Position numbers and translations under genes: made by a program. The notes under the pieces are model-generated. The model had not been told where the DNA came from and made no database searches. It was given only the letters and a program-made list of their open reading frames with translations. This document shows, in pieces, positions 3,263 to 34,000 of a stretch of DNA of 34,604 nucleotides; the stretch's first letter is position 1, and each line of letters begins with the position of its first letter. The stretch is from assembly GCA_001817115.1 (NCBI GenBank), contig MHHS01000006.1:1-34604 (forward strand), in the 5' to 3' direction. The stretch is from Candidatus Andersenbacteria bacterium RIFCSPHIGHO2_12_FULL_45_11b (lineage in GTDB: Bacteria; Patescibacteriota; Andersenbacteria; UBA10190).

Positions 3263-4348
3263 ATGAGCAAGACCACTCTTGTACGGAGCCTTCACCACGC
3301 AAAAGTATGCTTCATTCCCTTTCCTGCTAATAATCACCATCCGTTGGCGCTTCGGCACAAGCCACTTACAGCCATTTCCTTGCTTCTCGTCATCACAAAA
3401 ATCGTTGCTATCAGCATTGTCGGCCTCACGCCAAGCGAAGCAACCCTTTCAACCATCACTACAAATCGCATCATACAGCTCACGAATGAAGAACGTGGAA
3501 ACACTGGCTTACCAGCGCTCGCCGTCAACAGCAAGCTCGCTCAAGCCGCACAGCTCAAAGCAAACGACATGCTGAAAAACCAATACTTTGCCCATATATC
3601 CCCGACGAACGTAACCCCGTGGCACTGGATGGAACAAACGGGCTATTCCTACGAAGTTGCAGGAGAAAATCTTGCCATCGACTTTACGCAGGCAGAGGAT
3701 GTAGTATCTGCATGGCTTGCAAGCCCGAAACATAAGGAAAACATGCTTCGAAAAGATTATACTGAAACTGGCGTTGCCATTGCATCGGGAAAATTCAAAG
3801 ATTCGACATCAATTATAGTAGTTCATATGTTCGGCAAGCCTTCTCAAGCATCTACCCCAGCATCCTCCCCTACCTCTCCCCTACCCGCCGAAGCTTTAGC
3901 GCAAGTGGAACCAAGCGCGCTCTTGCAGGCAAGGGCATTGCCGCCAAAGCTCACTCCCACAATAACACCAACACCGTCACCTTCCCCCGCGCCAGTTATT
4001 GCAAGTATCATTCTGTCTCCCTCTTTTGACCAAGAAGAGTTTGCTATTGCACCAGCACATGCGAGCACATCTTCCTGGCAACTATTCTCTGTGCATTCTG
4101 CCATTGCATCAGATACAGATGTAGTATCCGCGATTCCTCTATTTACTATTCATCCAGTATCAAAAACATCAACAACATTTTTCGCGTTTACCTCGCGCAT
4201 CAGTCGAGATATGAGCGCCAGCATCGCGCTCGCGATGTGCGCATTGCTTTTGATTGCTGTTTTTGTTCGTGTTAAGGTACAGCACCCGCTCATGATTGCG
4301 CACGCATCTGTTGTCATTGTTCTCGCATTTGCGCTGTTTATCGCGTAA
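3263..4348 (+). CDS. CAP/SCP (YkwD-like) domain protein with Pro-rich linker and C-terminal TM segments
   Basis: LTNEERGNTGLPALAVNSKLAQAAQLKANDML..FAHISPTN..WHWMEQTGYSYEVAGENLA..; start uncertain. Confidence 0.85.
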   Translation: MSKTTLVRSLHHAKVCFIPFPANNHHPLALRHKPLTAISLLLVITKIVAISIVGLTPSEATLSTITTNRIIQLTNEERGNTGLPALAVNSKLAQAAQLKANDMLKNQYFAHISPTNVTPWHWMEQTGYSYEVAGENLAIDFTQAEDVVSAWLASPKHKENMLRKDYTETGVAIASGKFKDSTSIIVVHMFGKPSQASTPASSPTSPLPAEALAQVEPSALLQARALPPKLTPTITPTPSPSPAPVIASIILSPSFDQEEFAIAPAHASTSSWQLFSVHSAIASDTDVVSAIPLFTIHPVSKTSTTFFAFTSRISRDMSASIALAMCALLLIAVFVRVKVQHPLMIAHASVVIVLAFALFIA

Positions 4349-17439: not shown

Positions 17440-17733
17440 ATGAAAACCGATATCCATCCAGCTTACAATACCGAAGTAACCGTCACATGCGCGTGTGGCA
17501 ATACATTTGTGACCGGTTCGACACAAACTGCAATTTCCGTTGAAGTGTGCTCTGCATGCCACCCGTTCTACACCGGCAAACAAAAGCTCGTTGACGTAGC
17601 AGGCCGAGTGGATAAGTTCAAGAAACGCTTAGAAGAAGCTGGCGCTATTGCCGAACGGAAAAAGCAAGTAAAAGCTAAAACTTCTGCCAAAAAAACTGCA
17701 AAAAAAGACGACACTATTCGTATTTCTAAGTAA
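17440..17733 (+). CDS. rpmE: 50S ribosomal protein L31
   Basis: [55 protein letters not shown]. Confidence 0.94.
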
Positions 17734-17760
17734 GGGTAAGGCGATCAGATCGCTAACGAA

Positions 17761-18771
17761 TCATACATATTCATTAGTTCGCATCTCATACTCACTCAAT
17801 ACTATTTCCTCAAGATTATGAGCACTCCCATGTTGCAATAGACCAAGATAGGAATTCAGCGTCGGCAGTTTAGGGTTTTCTTGTATTCGCCGCATCATAC
17901 GTGTAGTTGTAGCTGACCTAAGGCGACGATAGTTGGAAAAATGAACCCACCCCAGAAAATCTACACCCGAAGCAAGCGAACGAATATATACTTTGCCAGG
18001 ATGCAAAGAGAGCTGAAGAAGCTGCACTAAAATATCTTCTATCTTCGGTATCTGGTCTTCAAGCAACTTTCTATCTTCAGATAAAAACACAAAATCATCT
18101 GCATACCGGATATAGTATTTGGCTTTTAAGAAATGCTTTGCGTATTGATCAAACTCATGCATATAAATATTCACGAGCAATTGAGATGTGAGATTCCCAA
18201 GCGGAAGCCCCTTGCCTGGTTTTGTTGATTGGAAGCTGGTGATAATTTCTTTGAGGAGCCAAAGAATATCTTGATCCGGAATGTAGGTTTGCAAAATACC
18301 CTGCAATATCGACTGATCAATACTGGCAAAGAATTTTCGGATGTCGCACTTGAGAACCCAACATGTCTTTGTGTAGTTGTGGCTAGCTTTTTGAGCTACC
18401 GATTTGAAACGGGCTAGCGCTTTGTGACTTCCTTTATTCAGACGGCAGGAATACGAATCATATATAAACACAGAATCGAAGAATGGATACAGAATACGAT
18501 ATATAGCATGGTGAAGAACCCTATCCCTCACGCTCGCTTTATGAATATTGCGCGGTTTCGAATCGGAAATCGAAAATGCTTTATACGGACCATGGCGATA
18601 CCGCTTGCTAGCTAAATCTTCGTGAAGGGAAAGTAGGCTATCAATCAAATTTCTTTCAAACGCTTGCACATCAGGCTTGTTTCGTTTACCGTTTATAAAC
18701 TCCGCCCAGGCTTGAAGTAAGTTATCTAAAGAAATAATATTGGCAAACGTATGGCTCAATTGAATGCGCAT
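17761..18771 (-). CDS. DGR reverse transcriptase (DGR1)
   Basis: DIRKFFASID, GLPLGNLTSQLLVNIYM (SQ-type motif of DGR RTs), YIRYADDFVF; paired with TR1/VR1. Confidence 0.93.
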   Translation of the reverse strand: MRIQLSHTFANIISLDNLLQAWAEFINGKRNKPDVQAFERNLIDSLLSLHEDLASKRYRHGPYKAFSISDSKPRNIHKASVRDRVLHHAIYRILYPFFDSVFIYDSYSCRLNKGSHKALARFKSVAQKASHNYTKTCWVLKCDIRKFFASIDQSILQGILQTYIPDQDILWLLKEIITSFQSTKPGKGLPLGNLTSQLLVNIYMHEFDQYAKHFLKAKYYIRYADDFVFLSEDRKLLEDQIPKIEDILVQLLQLSLHPGKVYIRSLASGVDFLGWVHFSNYRRLRSATTTRMMRRIQENPKLPTLNSYLGLLQHGSAHNLEEIVLSEYEMRTNEYV

Positions 18772-19191
18772 AAAAAATCATTTAACAATACCCCCCCCCC
18801 AGCAATAAGTTATCCACAGGGAGAATTACCACTGCTTAAAAAGGTAAAAAATGCTTATTTCCTATGGTATGGGCAGTACCAAATTTTGCCAAAAACTCAC
18901 CGACATACCCTAGGCAGCCGAATCGACACTCTCTTTATTACTCTCATTGAAGTTATAGCAGCCGCGAGCTTCATGCCTCGTCAGGAAAAATTACCGTATG
19001 TGCAAACTGCAATCCGCAAGCTTGATGCGATCAAGATTTTAATTATGATCCTTTGGGAAACAAAATCTCTTGATGACAAAAAGTATGTAATCATTTCGGA
19101 GCCATTACACGAAATCGGGCGCATGCTTGGCGGATGGAGTGGGCAACTTACCAAAGCTAAACAAGAAAAACAAAACTCCCTGCTTAGATAG
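18751..19191 (+). CDS. avd: Avd-like accessory protein of DGR1 (four-helix bundle, S23/IVP-like); start uncertain
   Basis: LPLLKKVKNAYFLWYGQYQILPKTHRHTLGSRIDTLFITLIEVIAAA..LHEIGRMLGGW; plus strand, opposite to RT. Confidence 0.85.
   Translation: MAQLNAHKKSFNNTPPPAISYPQGELPLLKKVKNAYFLWYGQYQILPKTHRHTLGSRIDTLFITLIEVIAAASFMPRQEKLPYVQTAIRKLDAIKILIMILWETKSLDDKKYVIISEPLHEIGRMLGGWSGQLTKAKQEKQNSLLR
18791..18800. repeat. Homopolymeric C10 tract (G10 upstream of RT1)
   Basis: ATA-CCCCCCCCCC-AGCAATA; 19 nt from the RT1 ATG. Confidence 0.9.
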
Positions 19192-19198
19192 CAGGGAG
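19176..19198. other. Perfect 8-bp hairpin between TR1 and avd1 stop codon
   Basis: CTCCCTGC-TTAGATA-GCAGGGAG; minus strand followed by TTTTGTTTTT. Confidence 0.8.
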
Positions 19199-19210
19199 AA
19201 ATGAAGAGAG

Positions 19211-19305
19211 TTGCGGACACCGGCGAACCACCAGTTGTCATTCCAGTCATTGTCATTGCGGTTAACGTTCACATTCCGCTCGTCATTCCACCGGTTGAAG
19301 ATCGC
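19211..19305 (-). repeat. DGR1 template repeat (TR1)
   Basis: Aligned to 19646-19740: 16 mismatches/95 bp, all at T on + (A on coding strand); peptide AIFNRWNDERNVNVNRNDNDWNDNWWFAGVRN, rich in AAT/AAC codons. Confidence 0.95.
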
Positions 19306-19550
19306 CCCTTATATGAAGTGCCATCTCTATCATATCGCCGCGCGAATACTCGCATTCGGCTTTTTTTGTTTTCGGCATCTCAACATGCCCTAGCACTTCA
19401 TACCAAGTATCTTCATTTTTTAGAAGTTTCTGCGTAAACCGCACTATTGCAAACCGTGATCGGCAATATTCTGGATATACGGATACTGGATTCGGCAGCG
19501 GGAAACCTTGGTCGGCCACGTATTCGCCTACTACCACGCATGATTATAGC

Positions 19551-19590
19551 AATAAAAAAGCGCCGCATACAAATGTACGCGACGCGAAGG
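19551..19590 (-). terminator. Terminator downstream of VP1
   Basis: Minus: GCGTCGCGTACATTTGTATGCGGCGCTTTTTT. Confidence 0.75.
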
Positions 19591-19614
19591 ACTAAGGCCA
19601 AAGCAACAAAGTGC

Positions 19615-20253
19615 TTAGGACAAAGTTTCTGACCGCAAAGAACTCTTGCGGACACCGGCGAACCACCAGTCGTCACCCCAGTCACCGCCATAGCGGTAAA
19701 CGTCCACACCCCGCCCGCCATCCCACCGGTGGAAGACCGCGTAGCACCAGTTGCTTTCAGCATCCTTCCAATGAGTGGCATTGGGATGATCGTCGGCGAA
19801 CGCGGGATCTTGCTCGTTAACGGCGGCCAGTGAGTACGGATCGACGGGCTTTAATCCCCGCAAATCGAACTCCTTTCCGAGGTCGACGTCGTTAACGTAA
19901 CGACCAAGCTTGAAGAAGTAGACATCCACTTCTTCACCCTCACCGTGCGGCATGGAAGCAGCTACTTCTTCATCTACGTACTGATTGCGACCCGTCGCCT
20001 TCATTGCTTCCTTTGGAGGGCAGGTGCGATCGACCTTGACGCGACGAACGATCATACCACTGATCGCTTCCACGCGCATACGGAACACCGCGAACAGGTC
20101 TGTGGCGAATTCCGGCTGACCAAGAACAGTTTGCACCGCCTCGGCGTCGAATTGGCCTGCATGCTTCTCGAGCATTGCTCGATACAGGCCGACCGCTTTA
20201 TCGACTTGACCAGCTGTCGTCGTCTTTGCGGATGGGGTCATGATCTGTGTCAT
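19615..20253 (-). CDS. DGR1 variable (target) protein, C-type-lectin-like C-terminus
   Basis: C-terminus NWCYAVFHRWDGGRGVDVYRYGGDWGDDWWFAGVRK encoded by VR1; SD AAGGAG before ATG. Confidence 0.9.
   Translation of the reverse strand: MTQIMTPSAKTTTAGQVDKAVGLYRAMLEKHAGQFDAEAVQTVLGQPEFATDLFAVFRMRVEAISGMIVRRVKVDRTCPPKEAMKATGRNQYVDEEVAASMPHGEGEEVDVYFFKLGRYVNDVDLGKEFDLRGLKPVDPYSLAAVNEQDPAFADDHPNATHWKDAESNWCYAVFHRWDGGRGVDVYRYGGDWGDDWWFAGVRKSSLRSETLS
19646..19740 (-). repeat. DGR1 variable repeat (VR1)
   Basis: See TR1; offset 435 bp, no indels. Confidence 0.95.
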
Positions 20254-20304
20254 GGCGTCATCTCCTTCTTGAGGTAAAGAACATACCGAAATTGGTATTC
20301 TCCC

Positions 20305-20355
20305 ATTATATACCTTATTGTATTATTTGTCAATACCAAGGTACTGTGCTATGTT
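20305..20355. promoter_or_regulatory. Divergent promoters sharing a -35 (VP1 minus / prfA plus)
   Basis: Minus: TTGACA(20333-20328)-17-TATAAT(20310-20305); plus: TTGTCA(20327-20332)-17-TATGTT(20350-20355). Confidence 0.75.
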
Positions 20356-20402
20356 AAAAGTGCTCTTACAAGAGCTTTTTAGGCCAAAAAGAGCTATATA
20401 CT

Positions 20403-21473
20403 ATGAATACTCCATCGGAAGAGGCATTGCAGCAAGAAATCGATTCGCTTACCCAAAAGATGAGCGATCCTGCTGCTATGAAACAGGCAAGTATTATAAA
20501 AGAACTGTCCCATTCCCTGCGGCACGCACGGGAAGTTCTTGAGGCGACTTACGCATTACGAATCATTACAGAGCAGCTTAATGCAAGCATCGAACTTGCT
20601 AACTCTTCCGAAGACGAAGACATGAAGGCGCTTGCACAAGAAGATATCAATACTCTCGCACAAAAAAAATCTGAAACTGAAAATAAATTAGAAGAGTTGC
20701 TGATTCCAGAAGATCCGCGAAATAGCCGCGACGTCATCCTGGAAATTCGCGCGGGAGCAGGCGGAGATGAAGCGGGGCTATTCGCAGGCGAGCTGCTGCG
20801 CGCATATATGCGCTACGCGGAAGTGAAGGGCTGGAAAATATCTTCCGTAAGCCAATCAGAAGGAGAGCACGGCGGAATCAAAGAGGCAATTGTTGAAATC
20901 TCTGGGGAAGATGTATACGGCCACTTAAAATTCGAGAGCGGAGTGCATCGGGTTCAGCGCATCCCAACCACAGAAAAAATGGGACGCGTGCACACATCAA
21001 CGATCACCGTTGCAATTCTTCCCCGTGCTGAAGAAGTAGATATTGAAATCAAGCCGGAAGATTTGCGTATCGACACCTACCGAGCATCAGGCGCCGGCGG
21101 ACAGCACGTGAATAAAACAAGCTCTGCCATCCGCATTACCCACATCCCTACTAACATCATGGTTGCTTGCCAGCAAGAACGAAGCCAGCACAAGAATCGC
21201 GACATGGCAATGAGCCTGCTGCGCGCAAAATTGCTTGCAAAAAAAGAAGAGGAAGTCCATGCCAAAGAAGCCTCTGCCCGCAAAGCGCAAATCGGAACTG
21301 CGGACCGATCAGAAAAAATTCGAACATACAACTTCCCCCAAGACCGCGTGACGGATCATCGCATCAAGCAATCATGGAGCGGAATCGAGCTGATTATGGA
21401 AGGCGCATTGGATCCGATATTTACAGATATTCGCAATGCTGACCGCGAGCTTCGTTTAGCGGCGGCGGGATGA
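20403..21473 (+). CDS. prfA: Peptide chain release factor 1
   Basis: GAGGDEAGLFAGELLRAY, GVHRVQRIPTTEKMGRVHTS, GAGGQHVNKTSSAIRITH. Confidence 0.94.
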   Translation: MNTPSEEALQQEIDSLTQKMSDPAAMKQASIIKELSHSLRHAREVLEATYALRIITEQLNASIELANSSEDEDMKALAQEDINTLAQKKSETENKLEELLIPEDPRNSRDVILEIRAGAGGDEAGLFAGELLRAYMRYAEVKGWKISSVSQSEGEHGGIKEAIVEISGEDVYGHLKFESGVHRVQRIPTTEKMGRVHTSTITVAILPRAEEVDIEIKPEDLRIDTYRASGAGGQHVNKTSSAIRITHIPTNIMVACQQERSQHKNRDMAMSLLRAKLLAKKEEEVHAKEASARKAQIGTADRSEKIRTYNFPQDRVTDHRIKQSWSGIELIMEGALDPIFTDIRNADRELRLAAAG

Positions 21474-29674: not shown

Positions 29675-30808
29675 ATGGCAACTTTTTTTCAACTCCCTAA
29701 GAAAAGCATATCGCTTGTTGTTATTATTCTCGTTATTGCCGTTATTGGCATAGTGTTGACCACTGCGCTTCCGCACACAACTATCACCGTCCGCCCAAAA
29801 GTCGATCAACGCAAAATATCTAAAGACATCATACTCTCCTCCAAAACAACGACGCCTGATTACGTCCACTATGCCCTGCCAGCAAAAATCATTTCCCAAG
29901 AAGGCCATGCAGAGCAATCATTCACTCAATCCGACGGCGATGTAACACAGGGAAATTCCAAGGGCACGGTAACGTTTACGAATACGCAAGACACGGAACA
30001 GCGGCTGCTTCCAAAAACGCATCTTCGATACGAGCCCACGGGCGTGATGTTTTTAACTGATAATCCTGTCATCATTCCGCCGAACGGTACGGTTGACGCG
30101 CCGGTGGCTGCAAAAGAAACAGGAAAAGCTGGCGATGTTCCTCCTGGGAAATTTTTAGTAGATAAGTTTTCGCCTGGGCTGCAAAAAGCAGTATATGCAG
30201 AAAGTAAGTCGCAATTCTCCGGAGGAGAGCTTGGCGCGCATGCAATTTCCCAAGAAGATATCGATAAAGCAAAACAAACAGTACTTGAAGCAGCAAAACA
30301 GAAAGCGCTGGATGCAATTAAAAAAGAAGCCGGCAACGCAGAAGTGCGCTCCGACCTTTTATCCGTTACCCCAGAACATAACGACGCTTCCGTGCAAGCC
30401 GGGAGCAAGGCAGTCAGCTATACGGCAAGCGCAACGGTACAGGCGAAAGAATTTATCGTAGATTCGCATGACATCATCAGCCTGATGACGCTTGCGCTCC
30501 GTGCTGAAGTTGCGCCTGACGAAGAATTTATATCATACGACCCCGCATCTTTTTCTCTTGCGATCACACAAACAGATTGGAATACCGGGCAGGCGCGCAT
30601 TTCCGCATCGCTCACCGGAACATACGGCAAAAAAATCGGATCTAGCGAACTTTCGGAAGATAATCTCGCCGGCTTGGGCAAACAGGAACTGGCAAACCAC
30701 TTCAAAAATTTTCCCAGTATCGGAGATGTGGATATCAAGTTCTGGCCATTTTGGGTAACAAGCGCCCCTTCCCGCCCAAATCAAATCAACATCGAAGTAG
30801 CGCATTAA
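29675..30808 (+). CDS. Membrane-anchored hypothetical protein (possibly baseplate-J-like fold)
   Basis: N-terminal TM; GTVTFTNTQDTEQRLLPKTHLRYEPTGVMFLTDNPVIIPPNGTVDAPVAAKETGKAGDVPPG. Confidence 0.55.
   Translation: MATFFQLPKKSISLVVIILVIAVIGIVLTTALPHTTITVRPKVDQRKISKDIILSSKTTTPDYVHYALPAKIISQEGHAEQSFTQSDGDVTQGNSKGTVTFTNTQDTEQRLLPKTHLRYEPTGVMFLTDNPVIIPPNGTVDAPVAAKETGKAGDVPPGKFLVDKFSPGLQKAVYAESKSQFSGGELGAHAISQEDIDKAKQTVLEAAKQKALDAIKKEAGNAEVRSDLLSVTPEHNDASVQAGSKAVSYTASATVQAKEFIVDSHDIISLMTLALRAEVAPDEEFISYDPASFSLAITQTDWNTGQARISASLTGTYGKKIGSSELSEDNLAGLGKQELANHFKNFPSIGDVDIKFWPFWVTSAPSRPNQINIEVAH
30737..30808 (+). repeat. 72-bp direct repeat, copy 1 (3' end of 29675-30808 CDS)
   Basis: AAGTTCTGGCCATTTTGGGTAACAAGCGCCCCTTCCCGCCCAAATCAAATCAACATCGAAGTAGCGCATTAA identical to 31267-31338. 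Confidence 0.97.
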
Positions 30809-30846: not shown

Positions 30847-31155
30847 ATGAGCAAAGATGATATTAAGCGCGCAGTCTGTAAAGCAATGGAAACAATGCCC
30901 CATAAGGAGGCTATTGATCGCGTACGATTATTTGGATCACAGCTTCACGGAGATGCAAAACCGACTAGTGACGTCGACTTATTAATCGATTTAAATGGTA
31001 AACTGCCGATTGGCTTTTTTGCGCTCTTCGACATACAAGAAGCATTCAAAAAAACAACTTGGTAAAGATGTGGATGTGGTGCCTTCAAAATCTTTGAGTA
31101 AGTATTTTCGAGATGATGTACTAAAAGAAGCACAACTATTATATGAACAAAAATC
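30847..31155 (+). pseudogene. MNT-family nucleotidyltransferase (antitoxin-type), frameshifted at an A7 run
   Basis: VRLFGSQLHGDAKPTSDVDLLIDL then FKK[frameshift]QLGKDVDVVPSKSLSKYFRDDVLKEAQLLYEQK. Confidence 0.8.
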
Positions 31156-31157
31156 CA

Positions 31158-31266
31158 GCGCAACGCCATGGTTCATGCATACTGGCAAATCAACGACGAA
31201 GTCGTTTGGGATGCATATAAAAACGATCTACCAGAACTGAAAAAGAAATTGGAGAAAATTGCTTGA
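31158..31266 (+). pseudogene. C-terminal remnant of HEPN (HepT/DUF86) toxin
   Basis: IQRNAMVHAYWQINDEVVWDAYKNDLPELKKKLEKIA*; retains R-X4-H-X-Y; N-terminal part missing. Confidence 0.7.
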
Positions 31267-31338
31267 AAGTTCTGGCCATTTTGGGTAACAAGCGCCCCTT
31301 CCCGCCCAAATCAAATCAACATCGAAGTAGCGCATTAA
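31267..31338 (+). repeat. 72-bp direct repeat, copy 2
   Basis: Identical to 30737-30808. Confidence 0.97.
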
Positions 31339-31348
31339 AGCAACTAAA

Positions 31349-32362
31349 CTATTCACTATTTTTTTCACGAAATAATCCGTACAAATTCAATACATCCTTC
31401 GTAAGCCGTTCCGTATTCCCATGCCGTAGTAACCCCAAATACGACTGAACCGTTTCTTCTTTAGGATTTTCTGCAATCTGCTTTTGCATACGTCTGCTCG
31501 TAGCTGATCTCAACACTCGATGGTCTGGAAAATTTACCCATCCCAGAAAATCTACTCCCGAAACTAAAGAACGAATATATACTTTGTCAGGATGCAGATT
31601 CAAACACAGCACCCCGTTTAAAAAATACTCTATCTTTGGAATCTGTTTTTCAAGCCATGCCCTATCGTGAGATAAAAGCACAAAATCATCAGCATAGCGA
31701 ACATACTGCTTTGCATGCAATCCATGTTTTGCATAGTGGTCAAATTCGTTCATATATATATTCACGAACAATTGTGACGTAAGATTGCCAAGTGGCAAGC
31801 CTTTCCCCGCTTCGTTTGCATGGAAGCTATTAATAATTTCCTTGAGCAACCGCATAATATCCACATCTGGAATAGAAAGGGAGAGAATTCCCAGTAAAAT
31901 ATTTTGATCAATGCTTGCAAAGAATTTTCTAATGTCGCACTTGAGAACATAACAAATTTTTGTATTATTATTGCTCAACTTCGTAGAATACTTTTTAAAT
32001 TGTTCAATTGCCTTGTGAGTTCCTTTATCTTTTCTACATGAATACGAATAATGGACAAACGTACGATCAAAAAATGGATAAAGTATCAGATATATTGCGT
32101 GATGTAACACGCGATCCCGAACAGTTGCTTTGTGAATATTTCTCGGCTTTGGGTCAGCTATCGCAAAAGCCTTATAGGCACCATGCTGATACGTATGGCT
32201 TGCAAGATCAGCATGGAGATCATAAAGATTATCAAACAGATTTCGATCGAACACTTGCACGTCTTTTTTATTTCGCTTACCCTTGAGAAATCCATTCCAT
32301 CCGCGTAGCAAATTATCCAAAGAAATAATATCTTTAAATGTATGACTCAATTGGATTCTCAT
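31349..32362 (-). CDS. DGR reverse transcriptase (DGR2)
   Basis: DIRKFFASID, GLPLGNLTSQLFVNIYM, YVRYADDFVLL; start MRIQLSHTF at 32362, matching RT1. Confidence 0.93.
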   Translation of the reverse strand: MRIQLSHTFKDIISLDNLLRGWNGFLKGKRNKKDVQVFDRNLFDNLYDLHADLASHTYQHGAYKAFAIADPKPRNIHKATVRDRVLHHAIYLILYPFFDRTFVHYSYSCRKDKGTHKAIEQFKKYSTKLSNNNTKICYVLKCDIRKFFASIDQNILLGILSLSIPDVDIMRLLKEIINSFHANEAGKGLPLGNLTSQLFVNIYMNEFDHYAKHGLHAKQYVRYADDFVLLSHDRAWLEKQIPKIEYFLNGVLCLNLHPDKVYIRSLVSGVDFLGWVNFPDHRVLRSATSRRMQKQIAENPKEETVQSYLGLLRHGNTERLTKDVLNLYGLFREKNSE

Positions 32363-32381
32363 AAACAACCAATAAAGCAGA

Positions 32382-32390
32382 CCCCCCCCC
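32382..32390. repeat. Homopolymeric C9 tract (G9 upstream of RT2)
   Basis: CAGA-CCCCCCCCC-ATCGCAA; 19 nt from the RT2 ATG. Confidence 0.9.
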
Positions 32391-32399
32391 ATCGCAAAG

Positions 32400-32762
32400 T
32401 TGTCCACAGATAATTTGCCAATCCTAAGCTGCTTAGGAGATGCATATAAGGCGTGGCATCGAAGTCTGCAAAATATGCAGAAGTTTTCTCGGTTTACCAT
32501 TGGCATAAAAATAGACATGCTGTTTCTTGAAACAATTGAATTTATTTTACTTGCGGAGTACGCACCGAAGGATCAAAAAAGCTCTATCATCAAACGGGCA
32601 AGCGGGAAATTAGACGCACTTAAATATTTCTTGCAATTAACTTCCGAGATGAGCATGCTGGAACACAACCAGTATATCCCTATCGCAGTACCGCTCACTG
32701 AAGCAGGCAAAATGCTTGGAGGATGGCAAAAACATATCAGACAAACAGCTCCTGCGCCGTAG
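32400..32762 (+). CDS. avd: Avd-like accessory protein of DGR2
   Basis: NLPILSCLGDAYKAWHRSLQNMQKFSRFTIGIKIDMLFLETIEFILLAEY..LTEAGKMLGGW; opposite strand to RT2; TTG start uncertain. Confidence 0.83.
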   Translation: MSTDNLPILSCLGDAYKAWHRSLQNMQKFSRFTIGIKIDMLFLETIEFILLAEYAPKDQKSSIIKRASGKLDALKYFLQLTSEMSMLEHNQYIPIAVPLTEAGKMLGGWQKHIRQTAPAP

Positions 32763-32772
32763 CTACGGGAGC
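32748..32772. other. Hairpin at avd2 stop codon, next to TR2
   Basis: GCTCC..CCGTAGCTACGG..GGAGC; contains palindrome CGTAGCTACG. Confidence 0.6.
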
Positions 32773-32794
32773 GTTGCCGTTAATCAGAAGAAAG

Positions 32795-32916
32795 TTGCGG
32801 GTAGAGGGGAAACGACAATTCTCATTCCAATCATTGTCACGGTAATTCAGATACAGCTTCCGCTTGCCATCGTTCTCGTTCGCATACAGAACACGAACCT
32901 TACCGTTCCGGTCAAC
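32795..32916 (-). repeat. DGR2 template repeat (TR2)
   Basis: Aligned to 33304-33425: 19 mismatches/122 bp, all at template A; peptide VRVLYANENDGKRKLYLNYRDNDWNENCRFPSTRN. Confidence 0.95.
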
Positions 32917-33060
32917 CATAGCGTGCAAGATAACTTCTATGTCACCGCCCCGCGAATATTCTTGGGACTGTTTCGCATTCGAGAGAATGATAACTCTCCT
33001 ATTATCTGCACCAAGTTTCTTCTTCAAAAGAATCATCCGCCGCACGCTAGGGTAAGCCCT

Positions 33061-33079
33061 GCCTACCCGACGGGTAGGC
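33061..33079. repeat. Palindrome GCCTACCCGACGGGTAGGC
   Basis: Inverted repeat in the TR2 leader. Confidence 0.7.
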
Positions 33080-33196
33080 TTCACCGATCCTATTCCGGCT
33101 GAAACGGAATGCTCTAGGGTTCAACCGCCCGAAGATATTATCCGCAGACTGTATCGTTTACTATCCATACGTATTATATATTCATTAATGCAAAAT

Positions 33197-33236
33197 AAAA
33201 AAGCTCTTGTCGCAAACCGAAGTTTGAACAAGAGCG
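33197..33236 (-). terminator. Terminator downstream of VP2
   Basis: Minus: GCTCTTGTTCAAACTTCGGTTTGCGACAAGAGCTTTTTT, UUCG-capped inner stem. Confidence 0.85.
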
Positions 33237-33293
33237 ACGAACGCCAAGATCCCGAGTGTCCTTTCCAAGCACTAAGGGTCCAATTGCCAAGGG

Positions 33294-33914
33294 CTAAGAA
33301 ACCTTGCGGGTAGAGGGGAAACGACAATACCCAGACCAAACACCGTCACGGCAACCCAGATACAGCCCCCGCTCGCCATCGTACTCGAGCGCAAACAGAA
33401 CACGAACCTCACCGTGCCGGTCAACGCAGATTTTCTGGGTACAGATGATGGGGTCTTCCCGCTGAAGGTTCGGATACGTTTCGCACAAGCTGAGAAAACG
33501 CGCGGGTGAAATCATATTTTTGCCGTTCTTGGCTTGAAAAGATTCCGCTCCGGAGCTGCTCATGCTCTTTCCGAAACGATCCAGCTCGATATGGATTGGA
33601 GAGGCATGCTCCTCTTCGGCCTCCACAAACGAATCGATGTACTGCCAGATCTCCGGATCGACGTAGTCGAACCTGCACCGCTCAATCCGATCTTTCCAAG
33701 TAAGTCCTGGAACGAATGGGGTCGGGTACGTTTTGGTCGGAGATGCAGAAGCAATCGGTGAAGATGCTTGCAGGGCGTGTTCCCACGGATTTTCTTTCCG
33801 TAGAAACTTCTTGAGTCCGACAAGCCATGCTTCGGACTCTTCACCGCAAAGTTTCTCGGTCAGGTCGTTGAGCGGTCCACGAACATCGCAGAGCGCAAGC
33901 CGAGTGTCAGTCAT
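33294..33914 (-). CDS. DGR2 variable (target) protein
   Basis: MTDTRLALCDVRGPLNDL...; C-terminus GEVRVLFALEYDGERGLYLGCRDGVWSGYCRFPSTRKVS encoded by VR2; SD AAAGGA before ATG at 33914. Confidence 0.88.
   Translation of the reverse strand: MTDTRLALCDVRGPLNDLTEKLCGEESEAWLVGLKKFLRKENPWEHALQASSPIASASPTKTYPTPFVPGLTWKDRIERCRFDYVDPEIWQYIDSFVEAEEEHASPIHIELDRFGKSMSSSGAESFQAKNGKNMISPARFLSLCETYPNLQREDPIICTQKICVDRHGEVRVLFALEYDGERGLYLGCRDGVWSGYCRFPSTRKVS
33304..33425 (-). repeat. DGR2 variable repeat (VR2)
   Basis: See TR2; offset 509 bp, no indels. Confidence 0.95.
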
Positions 33915-34000
33915 GACAGTCAGTCCTTTCAAAAAACTCTCGAAAACGCTGAATTCTGCCACAATGGCATCTATATGCAGGTTTTCAAAGAACTGCAATA

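Follow-up and report, generated by a model that had tools for sequence, protein, structure and literature searches.

The locus analysed here raises the question of whether an RT gene and a nearby repeat pair form a genuine DGR, and what might control its activity. The window, meaning the whole stretch of 34,604 nt from an 884-kb Candidatus Andersenbacteria genome, contains two such elements, DGR1 and DGR2 (Table 1). These are complete Patescibacteria DGRs in which slippage of a repeat very likely switches the mutator on and off, and in which the template RNA is probably a small RNA of its own. The switching is inferred from the sequence and has not been observed.

The template repeat TR1 aligns with the variable repeat VR1 at an offset of 435 over 95 bp with no indels, and recomputation gives the 16 substitutions counted in the original prediction. 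All 16 are at the 26 template adenines (hypergeometric P = 1e-11), with 13 A>G, 2 A>T and 1 A>C changes as previously tallied, and adenine is never the product. In the recomputed alignment no difference within the 95 bp falls at a non-adenine position. The peptides encoded by TR1 and VR1 also match those given earlier, and the target C-terminus reads ...WDGGRGVDVYRYGGDWGDDWWFAGVRK.... The pair is recovered as well by a repeat search without any adenine rule, and is therefore not an artefact of the search rule. The A-only counts pooled across 163 loci provide no independent test, because the locus finder required A-only mismatches. No remote VR for TR1 was found elsewhere in the 884-kb genome.

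The RTs of DGR1 and DGR2 are both called as DGR-type (PHROG 1423, E 9e-105 and 6e-105), and the aligned RTs carry YADD and GNLTSQ motifs. With RT, TR, VR and a C-type-lectin-like target all present, DGR1 is a genuine DGR as had been proposed, and the positions of its target and RT reading frames were correctly placed. The original prediction is accurate in what it describes, but it omits the antisense avd gene, the repeat tract, the structured TR RNA and DGR2. Its suggestion that DGR1 is active or recently active is reasonable and not proven, as only one VR state per genome is available. DGR1 activity should depend on avd, which is apparently phase-variable.

Table 1. Features of DGR1 and DGR2 in the window.
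Feature	Position	Strand	Evidence
DGR1 RT, 336 aa	17761..18771	-	RVT_1 E 4e-21; PHROG 1423 reverse transcriptase E 9e-105
DGR1 avd, on the strand opposite to TR and RT	18751..19191	+	bAvd PF22296 E 6e-11; PHROG 3206 Avd E 2e-15
C10 tract (G10 on RT strand), proposed phase-variation switch	18791..18800	+	G/C-run scan
Hairpin, 9-bp stem and T-run, immediately following TR1 on its 3' side; probable terminator / TR-RNA 3' end	19176..19198	-	sequence
Template repeat TR1	19211..19305	-	TR/VR alignment
Structured TR-RNA leader, covarying helices; covariance-model core 19305-19416	19306..19535	-	covariation
TATAAT, -10-like box of TR-RNA promoter	19543..19548	-	sequence; -12/-13 position common to relatives
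Terminator-like hairpin and T-run after target gene	19553..19585	-	sequence
DGR1 target gene, 212 aa; C-type-lectin-like domain residues 68-205	19615..20253	-	AF2 and VIA-align
Variable repeat VR1	19646..19740	-	TR/VR alignment
DGR2 RT, likely ATG 32362, ORF open to 32518	31349..32362	-	RVT_1 E 3.5e-19; 68% identical to RT1
C9 tract, DGR2 avd/RT junction	32382..32390	+	G/C-run scan
DGR2 avd	32400..32762	+	bAvd E 2.3e-10; PHROG 3206
Template repeat TR2	32795..32916	-	TR/VR alignment
DGR2 TR-RNA structured leader core	32917..33024	-	covariance model R1, 82.8 bits
DGR2 target gene, VR2 at its 3' end	33294..33998	-	ORF
Variable repeat VR2	33304..33425	-	TR/VR alignment

The DGR1 target protein was modelled with AF2 from 14 sequences, giving a pLDDT of 79.5 overall with the last 140 residues confident. 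The closest structural neighbours of the C-terminal domain are C-type-lectin-like folds, with moderate VIA-align scores (Z 4.4-6.7), and the E values in a Foldseek search of the model were above 0.05. The C-terminus of the target thus models as a C-type-lectin-like domain ended by VR1, with the reservation that the Z scores are moderate.

DGR2 is a second complete DGR at 31349-33998, 13.6 kb from DGR1. TR2 and VR2 differ by 19 substitutions, all 19 at adenines (P = 4e-14). DGR2 likewise consists of an RT, an antisense avd with a C9 tract, TR2, VR2 and a leader RNA, and its target is unlike that of DGR1. Beside RT2, a perfect 72-bp direct repeat (30737-30808 and 31267-31338) duplicates the 3'-terminal part of a gene (29675-30808). 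The short ORF enclosed by the two copies (30995-31240) matches a nucleotidyltransferase weakly, and the repeat is possibly an insertion scar. A third RT of the same genome is on another contig. In the third DGR (L034, G000:C29:1-7400), 17 N are present at ~3966-3990, at the avd/RT junction, exactly the expected tract site.

In both DGRs of the window the order of elements is target, TR RNA, antisense avd and RT. The Avd accessory protein is present in each (bAvd PF22296, PHROG 3206), but its gene is antisense, occupying the opposite strand of the TR-RT interval head to head with RT. The window DGRs therefore do not have the one-strand avd-TR-RT operon of the BPP-1 type. An avd that is antisense and adjacent to RT is found in 122 of 136 sampled Patescibacteria RT loci. 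Among phage DGR records, including BPP-1, avd was detected in 8 of 12 and was always on the RT strand.

In DGR1 the C10 tract falls within the 5' part of the avd coding sequence and a short way upstream of where RT starts. The C10 and C9 junction tracts are the sole G/C runs of at least 9 in the whole 884-kb genome. The single-contig genome G035 has only three G9+ runs, which are the junctions of its three DGRs, and the only G9+ run of genome G004 is a DGR junction. Many or very long poly-G runs occur outside DGRs in some other genomes (G010, G012, G006:C16:54365 and G040:C118:11967), where they perhaps mark other phase-variable genes.

A set of 190 distinct Patescibacteria loci with an antisense, adjacent avd was pooled from phylum genomes and GTDB r220 contigs, and a junction repeat is present in 140 of them. 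The repeat unit is G in 115 loci, GA in 12, GT in 6 and CT in 3, and four loci have 4- or 5-base units (for example ATTGx7, CTGTCx7 and TGTCCx8). Units of 3 or 6 bases are absent from the tract loci. The units are of 1, 2, 4 or 5 bases, so only frameshifting repeats are kept. Tract density is 7.4/kb at the junction versus 0.05/kb in 704 kb of flanks. A junction tract is found in 75 of 77 loci in the GTDB set, where RTs closely related to the window RT are over-represented, versus 74 of 122 in the broader phylum sample. Since the loci are related, these counts are not independent, and assembled homopolymer lengths may be off by one. Two loci of the same genome that are 86% identical (L077 and L083) have G12 and G10 respectively; no further near-identical pair was informative for tract-length polymorphism.

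The 50 loci without a junction tract include 19 that have a repeat within RT instead. In 18 of these it lies at RT-profile position ~173-194, the exception being (AC)13 near 126 in L163. Junction and RT tracts are mutually exclusive, with no locus having both (Fisher P 1.4e-9 for the first 122 loci, leaving out two weak ATx5 runs). At the thresholds used, 31 of the 190 loci have neither kind. One locus without a junction tract has G9 and C8 runs between VR and TR (L066:1024-1060). The twelve phage DGRs have no tract, and nine of 12 IMG/VR antisense-avd loci also lack a tract (L260, L262-L264, L266, L267, L269-L271), unlike most cellular loci. This is a hint that viral members may do without the switch, from a small sample in which some contigs are maybe not viral. 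The idea that tract-less loci are prophages was rejected, as PHROG scans of the neighbouring genes gave no clear separation of the groups.

In 138 of the 140 junction loci the ATG of avd is on the far side of the tract from the domain, and only 2 of the 140 have an ATG between tract and domain. Exactly one of the three phases joins an ATG to avd in 121 of the 140, and the assembled phase is ON in 26 of these 121. In loci without a junction tract the avd ATG is near the domain in 49 of 50 cases (19/19 with an RT tract and 30/31 tract-less). RT is frameshifted, being split into two frames, in 10 of the 19 RT-tract loci, and out-of-frame alleles therefore exist without any assumption about start codons. 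In 54 junction loci no ATG is available to RT on the RT side of the tract either. In the loci where avd and RT each have one tract-dependent ON phase, that phase is identical for the two genes (33/33). Shared ancestry or the geometry of codons may account for part of this agreement, because 31 of the 33 loci share one antisense frame relation.

At its assembled tract length the avd of DGR1 has an open frame, with its ATG (18751) on the RT side of the tract and the Avd domain starting at ~18826. The corresponding ATG of DGR2 across the tract is out of frame as assembled, and a TTG (32400) is in frame. A TTG or GTG start past the tract could be a bypass in some avd genes, including that of DGR2. 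Two hallmarks of a contingency locus are thus present, a frameshifting repeat in the 5' coding region and the coexistence among relatives of alleles in and out of frame; the third, reversible length change within a clonal population, is inferred.

Avd is required for retrohoming in BPP-1 (PMC12875486; also PMC10053308). Combined with a frameshifting repeat in avd or RT, this predicts stochastic ON/OFF switching of the mutator. Slipped-strand mispairing would alter the repeat length and so turn Avd on or off. In ~40% of the junction loci RT would apparently be switched too, in the same phase, and in the RT-tract loci RT alone would be affected. With Avd or RT out of frame there would be no mutagenic retrohoming and the current VR would be frozen; reversion to an in-frame length would allow diversification to resume. 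A clonal population is then expected to contain mutator cells alongside frozen ones.

A rival view is that of an ordinary Patescibacteria DGR with an antisense avd, whose tract is low-complexity sequence that merely serves as a neutral spacer or encodes a Gly/Pro linker. DGRs restricted to Patescibacteria (clade 2) are already known (PMC8144416), and the 31 tract-less loci are also compatible with this. However, such tracts are scarce in the rest of this DNA, the unit varies (G, GA, GT, CT, 4- and 5-mers) while the place stays constant and 3-base units are absent, and junction and RT tracts exclude each other, which leaves a neutral tract strongly disfavoured and very improbable. Transcriptional slippage or ribosomal frameshifting, by which every cell would produce a small constant share of its Avd or RT in frame without any genetic switch, is also improbable. 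Homopolymers can slip at RNA polymerase, and many assembled alleles are out of frame with the genes nonetheless intact. The occurrence of (GA)n, (GT)n, (CT)n, ATTGx7, CTGTCx7 and TGTCCx8 in the same place is typical of replication slippage, however, and in-frame as well as out-of-frame alleles occur.

Tracts in promoter spacers are a known form of phase variation, and the position of this tract between divergent genes would suit a role in tuning the spacer length or strength of a divergent promoter, affecting transcription of avd and RT and not their frame. This also seems unlikely, since the position of the avd ATG in 138 of 140 loci places the tract inside coding sequence, and in other loci the repeat is deep within RT. 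At L164:4986-4992 a C7 run lies immediately outside the avd start, in a locus where avd is downstream of RT and not divergent from it; this suggests that the tract acts on avd. Transcriptional slippage and promoter tuning are the main rivals to repeat slippage as a switch, and the di- to pentanucleotide units and the RT-internal tracts count against both.

The ~240 nt from the target terminator to TR are conserved as RNA and not as protein. Two-sided covariation is seen in 19 of 23 pairs of the 106-nt leader core, and 95.8% of cells pair; none of 500 shuffles equals this and slid controls drop to 31-55%. A longer leader alignment has 45 pairs, 36 with two-sided changes. The covariation model comprises helix P1 of 12 bp, helices P2 and P3, and two further hairpins upstream. 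The covariance model matches exactly two places in the window, the leader cores of DGR1 and DGR2, each abutting its TR. Beyond the window it has 59 hits across 98 further loci, a set that includes some of the loci from which the model was built. There was no match in the phage DGR controls, and the seven matches in IMG/VR are all antisense-avd loci. The leader has no Rfam match. A conserved small protein upstream of TR (EYSRGxxIExxLH, common to DGR1 and DGR2) was considered and rejected, as the conservation is that of RNA structure.

A hairpin with a stem of at least 6 is found within 75 nt of TR in 96 of 163 loci, versus 9.4 in shuffles, and has a T-run in 78 (versus 2.2). In DGR1 the avd stop codon (19189-19191) sits within this TR-RNA 3' hairpin. 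A -10-like box is present in 42 of the 75 loci with an anchored start (10.8 when shuffled), at -12 or -13 of the leader in 37 of the 42, and a terminator-like hairpin follows the target in 62 of 163 loci (2 when shuffled). The covarying leader, the -10-like box and the hairpin after TR suggest, from sequence alone, that TR is probably transcribed as a small RNA of its own, with a dedicated promoter, leader and terminator-like hairpin, and not within an avd-TR-RT operon as in BPP-1. It is a guess that the leader takes over the scaffold role of the BPP-1 spacer. Taken across the phylum, it is likely that these DGRs are a two-layer generator in which a slipping repeat toggles the mutator and a dedicated TR small RNA serves it, with RT-Avd recruitment and cDNA priming unlike those of BPP-1.

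In three congeneric genomes (L340-L342) rpmE and prfA are adjacent without the 2.6-kb DGR1, an empty site corresponding to 17733-20403, and DGR1 was therefore gained here or lost there. The open literature, with subscription papers outside the scope, yielded no description of a DGR with an antisense avd, a repeat tract or phase-variable genes. That scope excludes the first CPR DGR surveys, so earlier mention of the antisense avd above all is possible. Slipped-strand variation is treated in one CPR paper, but for a different type of gene (PMC6851277). The natural regulation of DGR activity has been stated to be open (PMC12875486). If the proposed switching is true, these would be a group of DGRs with a built-in genetic switch, in which the hypermutator is itself phase-variable, and this would explain how a cell retains a good VR once found. 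Tract length would then be a one-base readout of the on or off state of a DGR. The covarying leader and antisense avd suggest that the TR RNA is built unlike that of BPP-1, and its design is possibly useful as an alternative chassis for targeted mutagenesis.

DGR1 and DGR2 resemble BPP-1 (NC_005357; mtd/avd/TR/brt) in having a DGR-type RT, Avd, adenine-specific TR/VR changes and a C-terminal C-type-lectin target. In BPP-1, avd is on the same strand upstream of TR, the avd mRNA flanks TR on the 5' side, and a structured TR-brt spacer recruits the RT-Avd complex and primes cDNA (PMC12875486). In the window DGRs, by contrast, an antisense avd fills the TR-RT interval, a covarying RNA lies 5' of TR with only a short hairpin after it, and a repeat tract is located within avd. 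They share with DGR clade 2 (Roux et al. 2021, PMC8144416), which is cellular and restricted to Patescibacteria/CPR, the host group, the cellular setting and a target without domains recognised by sequence; the main text of that paper makes no mention of Avd, orientation or accessory genes. The contingency loci of Campylobacter and Neisseria (PMC4965091, PMC5084427) are similar in having G7-G14 or short-unit tracts in 5' coding regions and both in-frame and out-of-frame alleles. They differ in that the gene switched here, by inference, is a component of a targeted mutator and not a surface antigen or a modifying enzyme.
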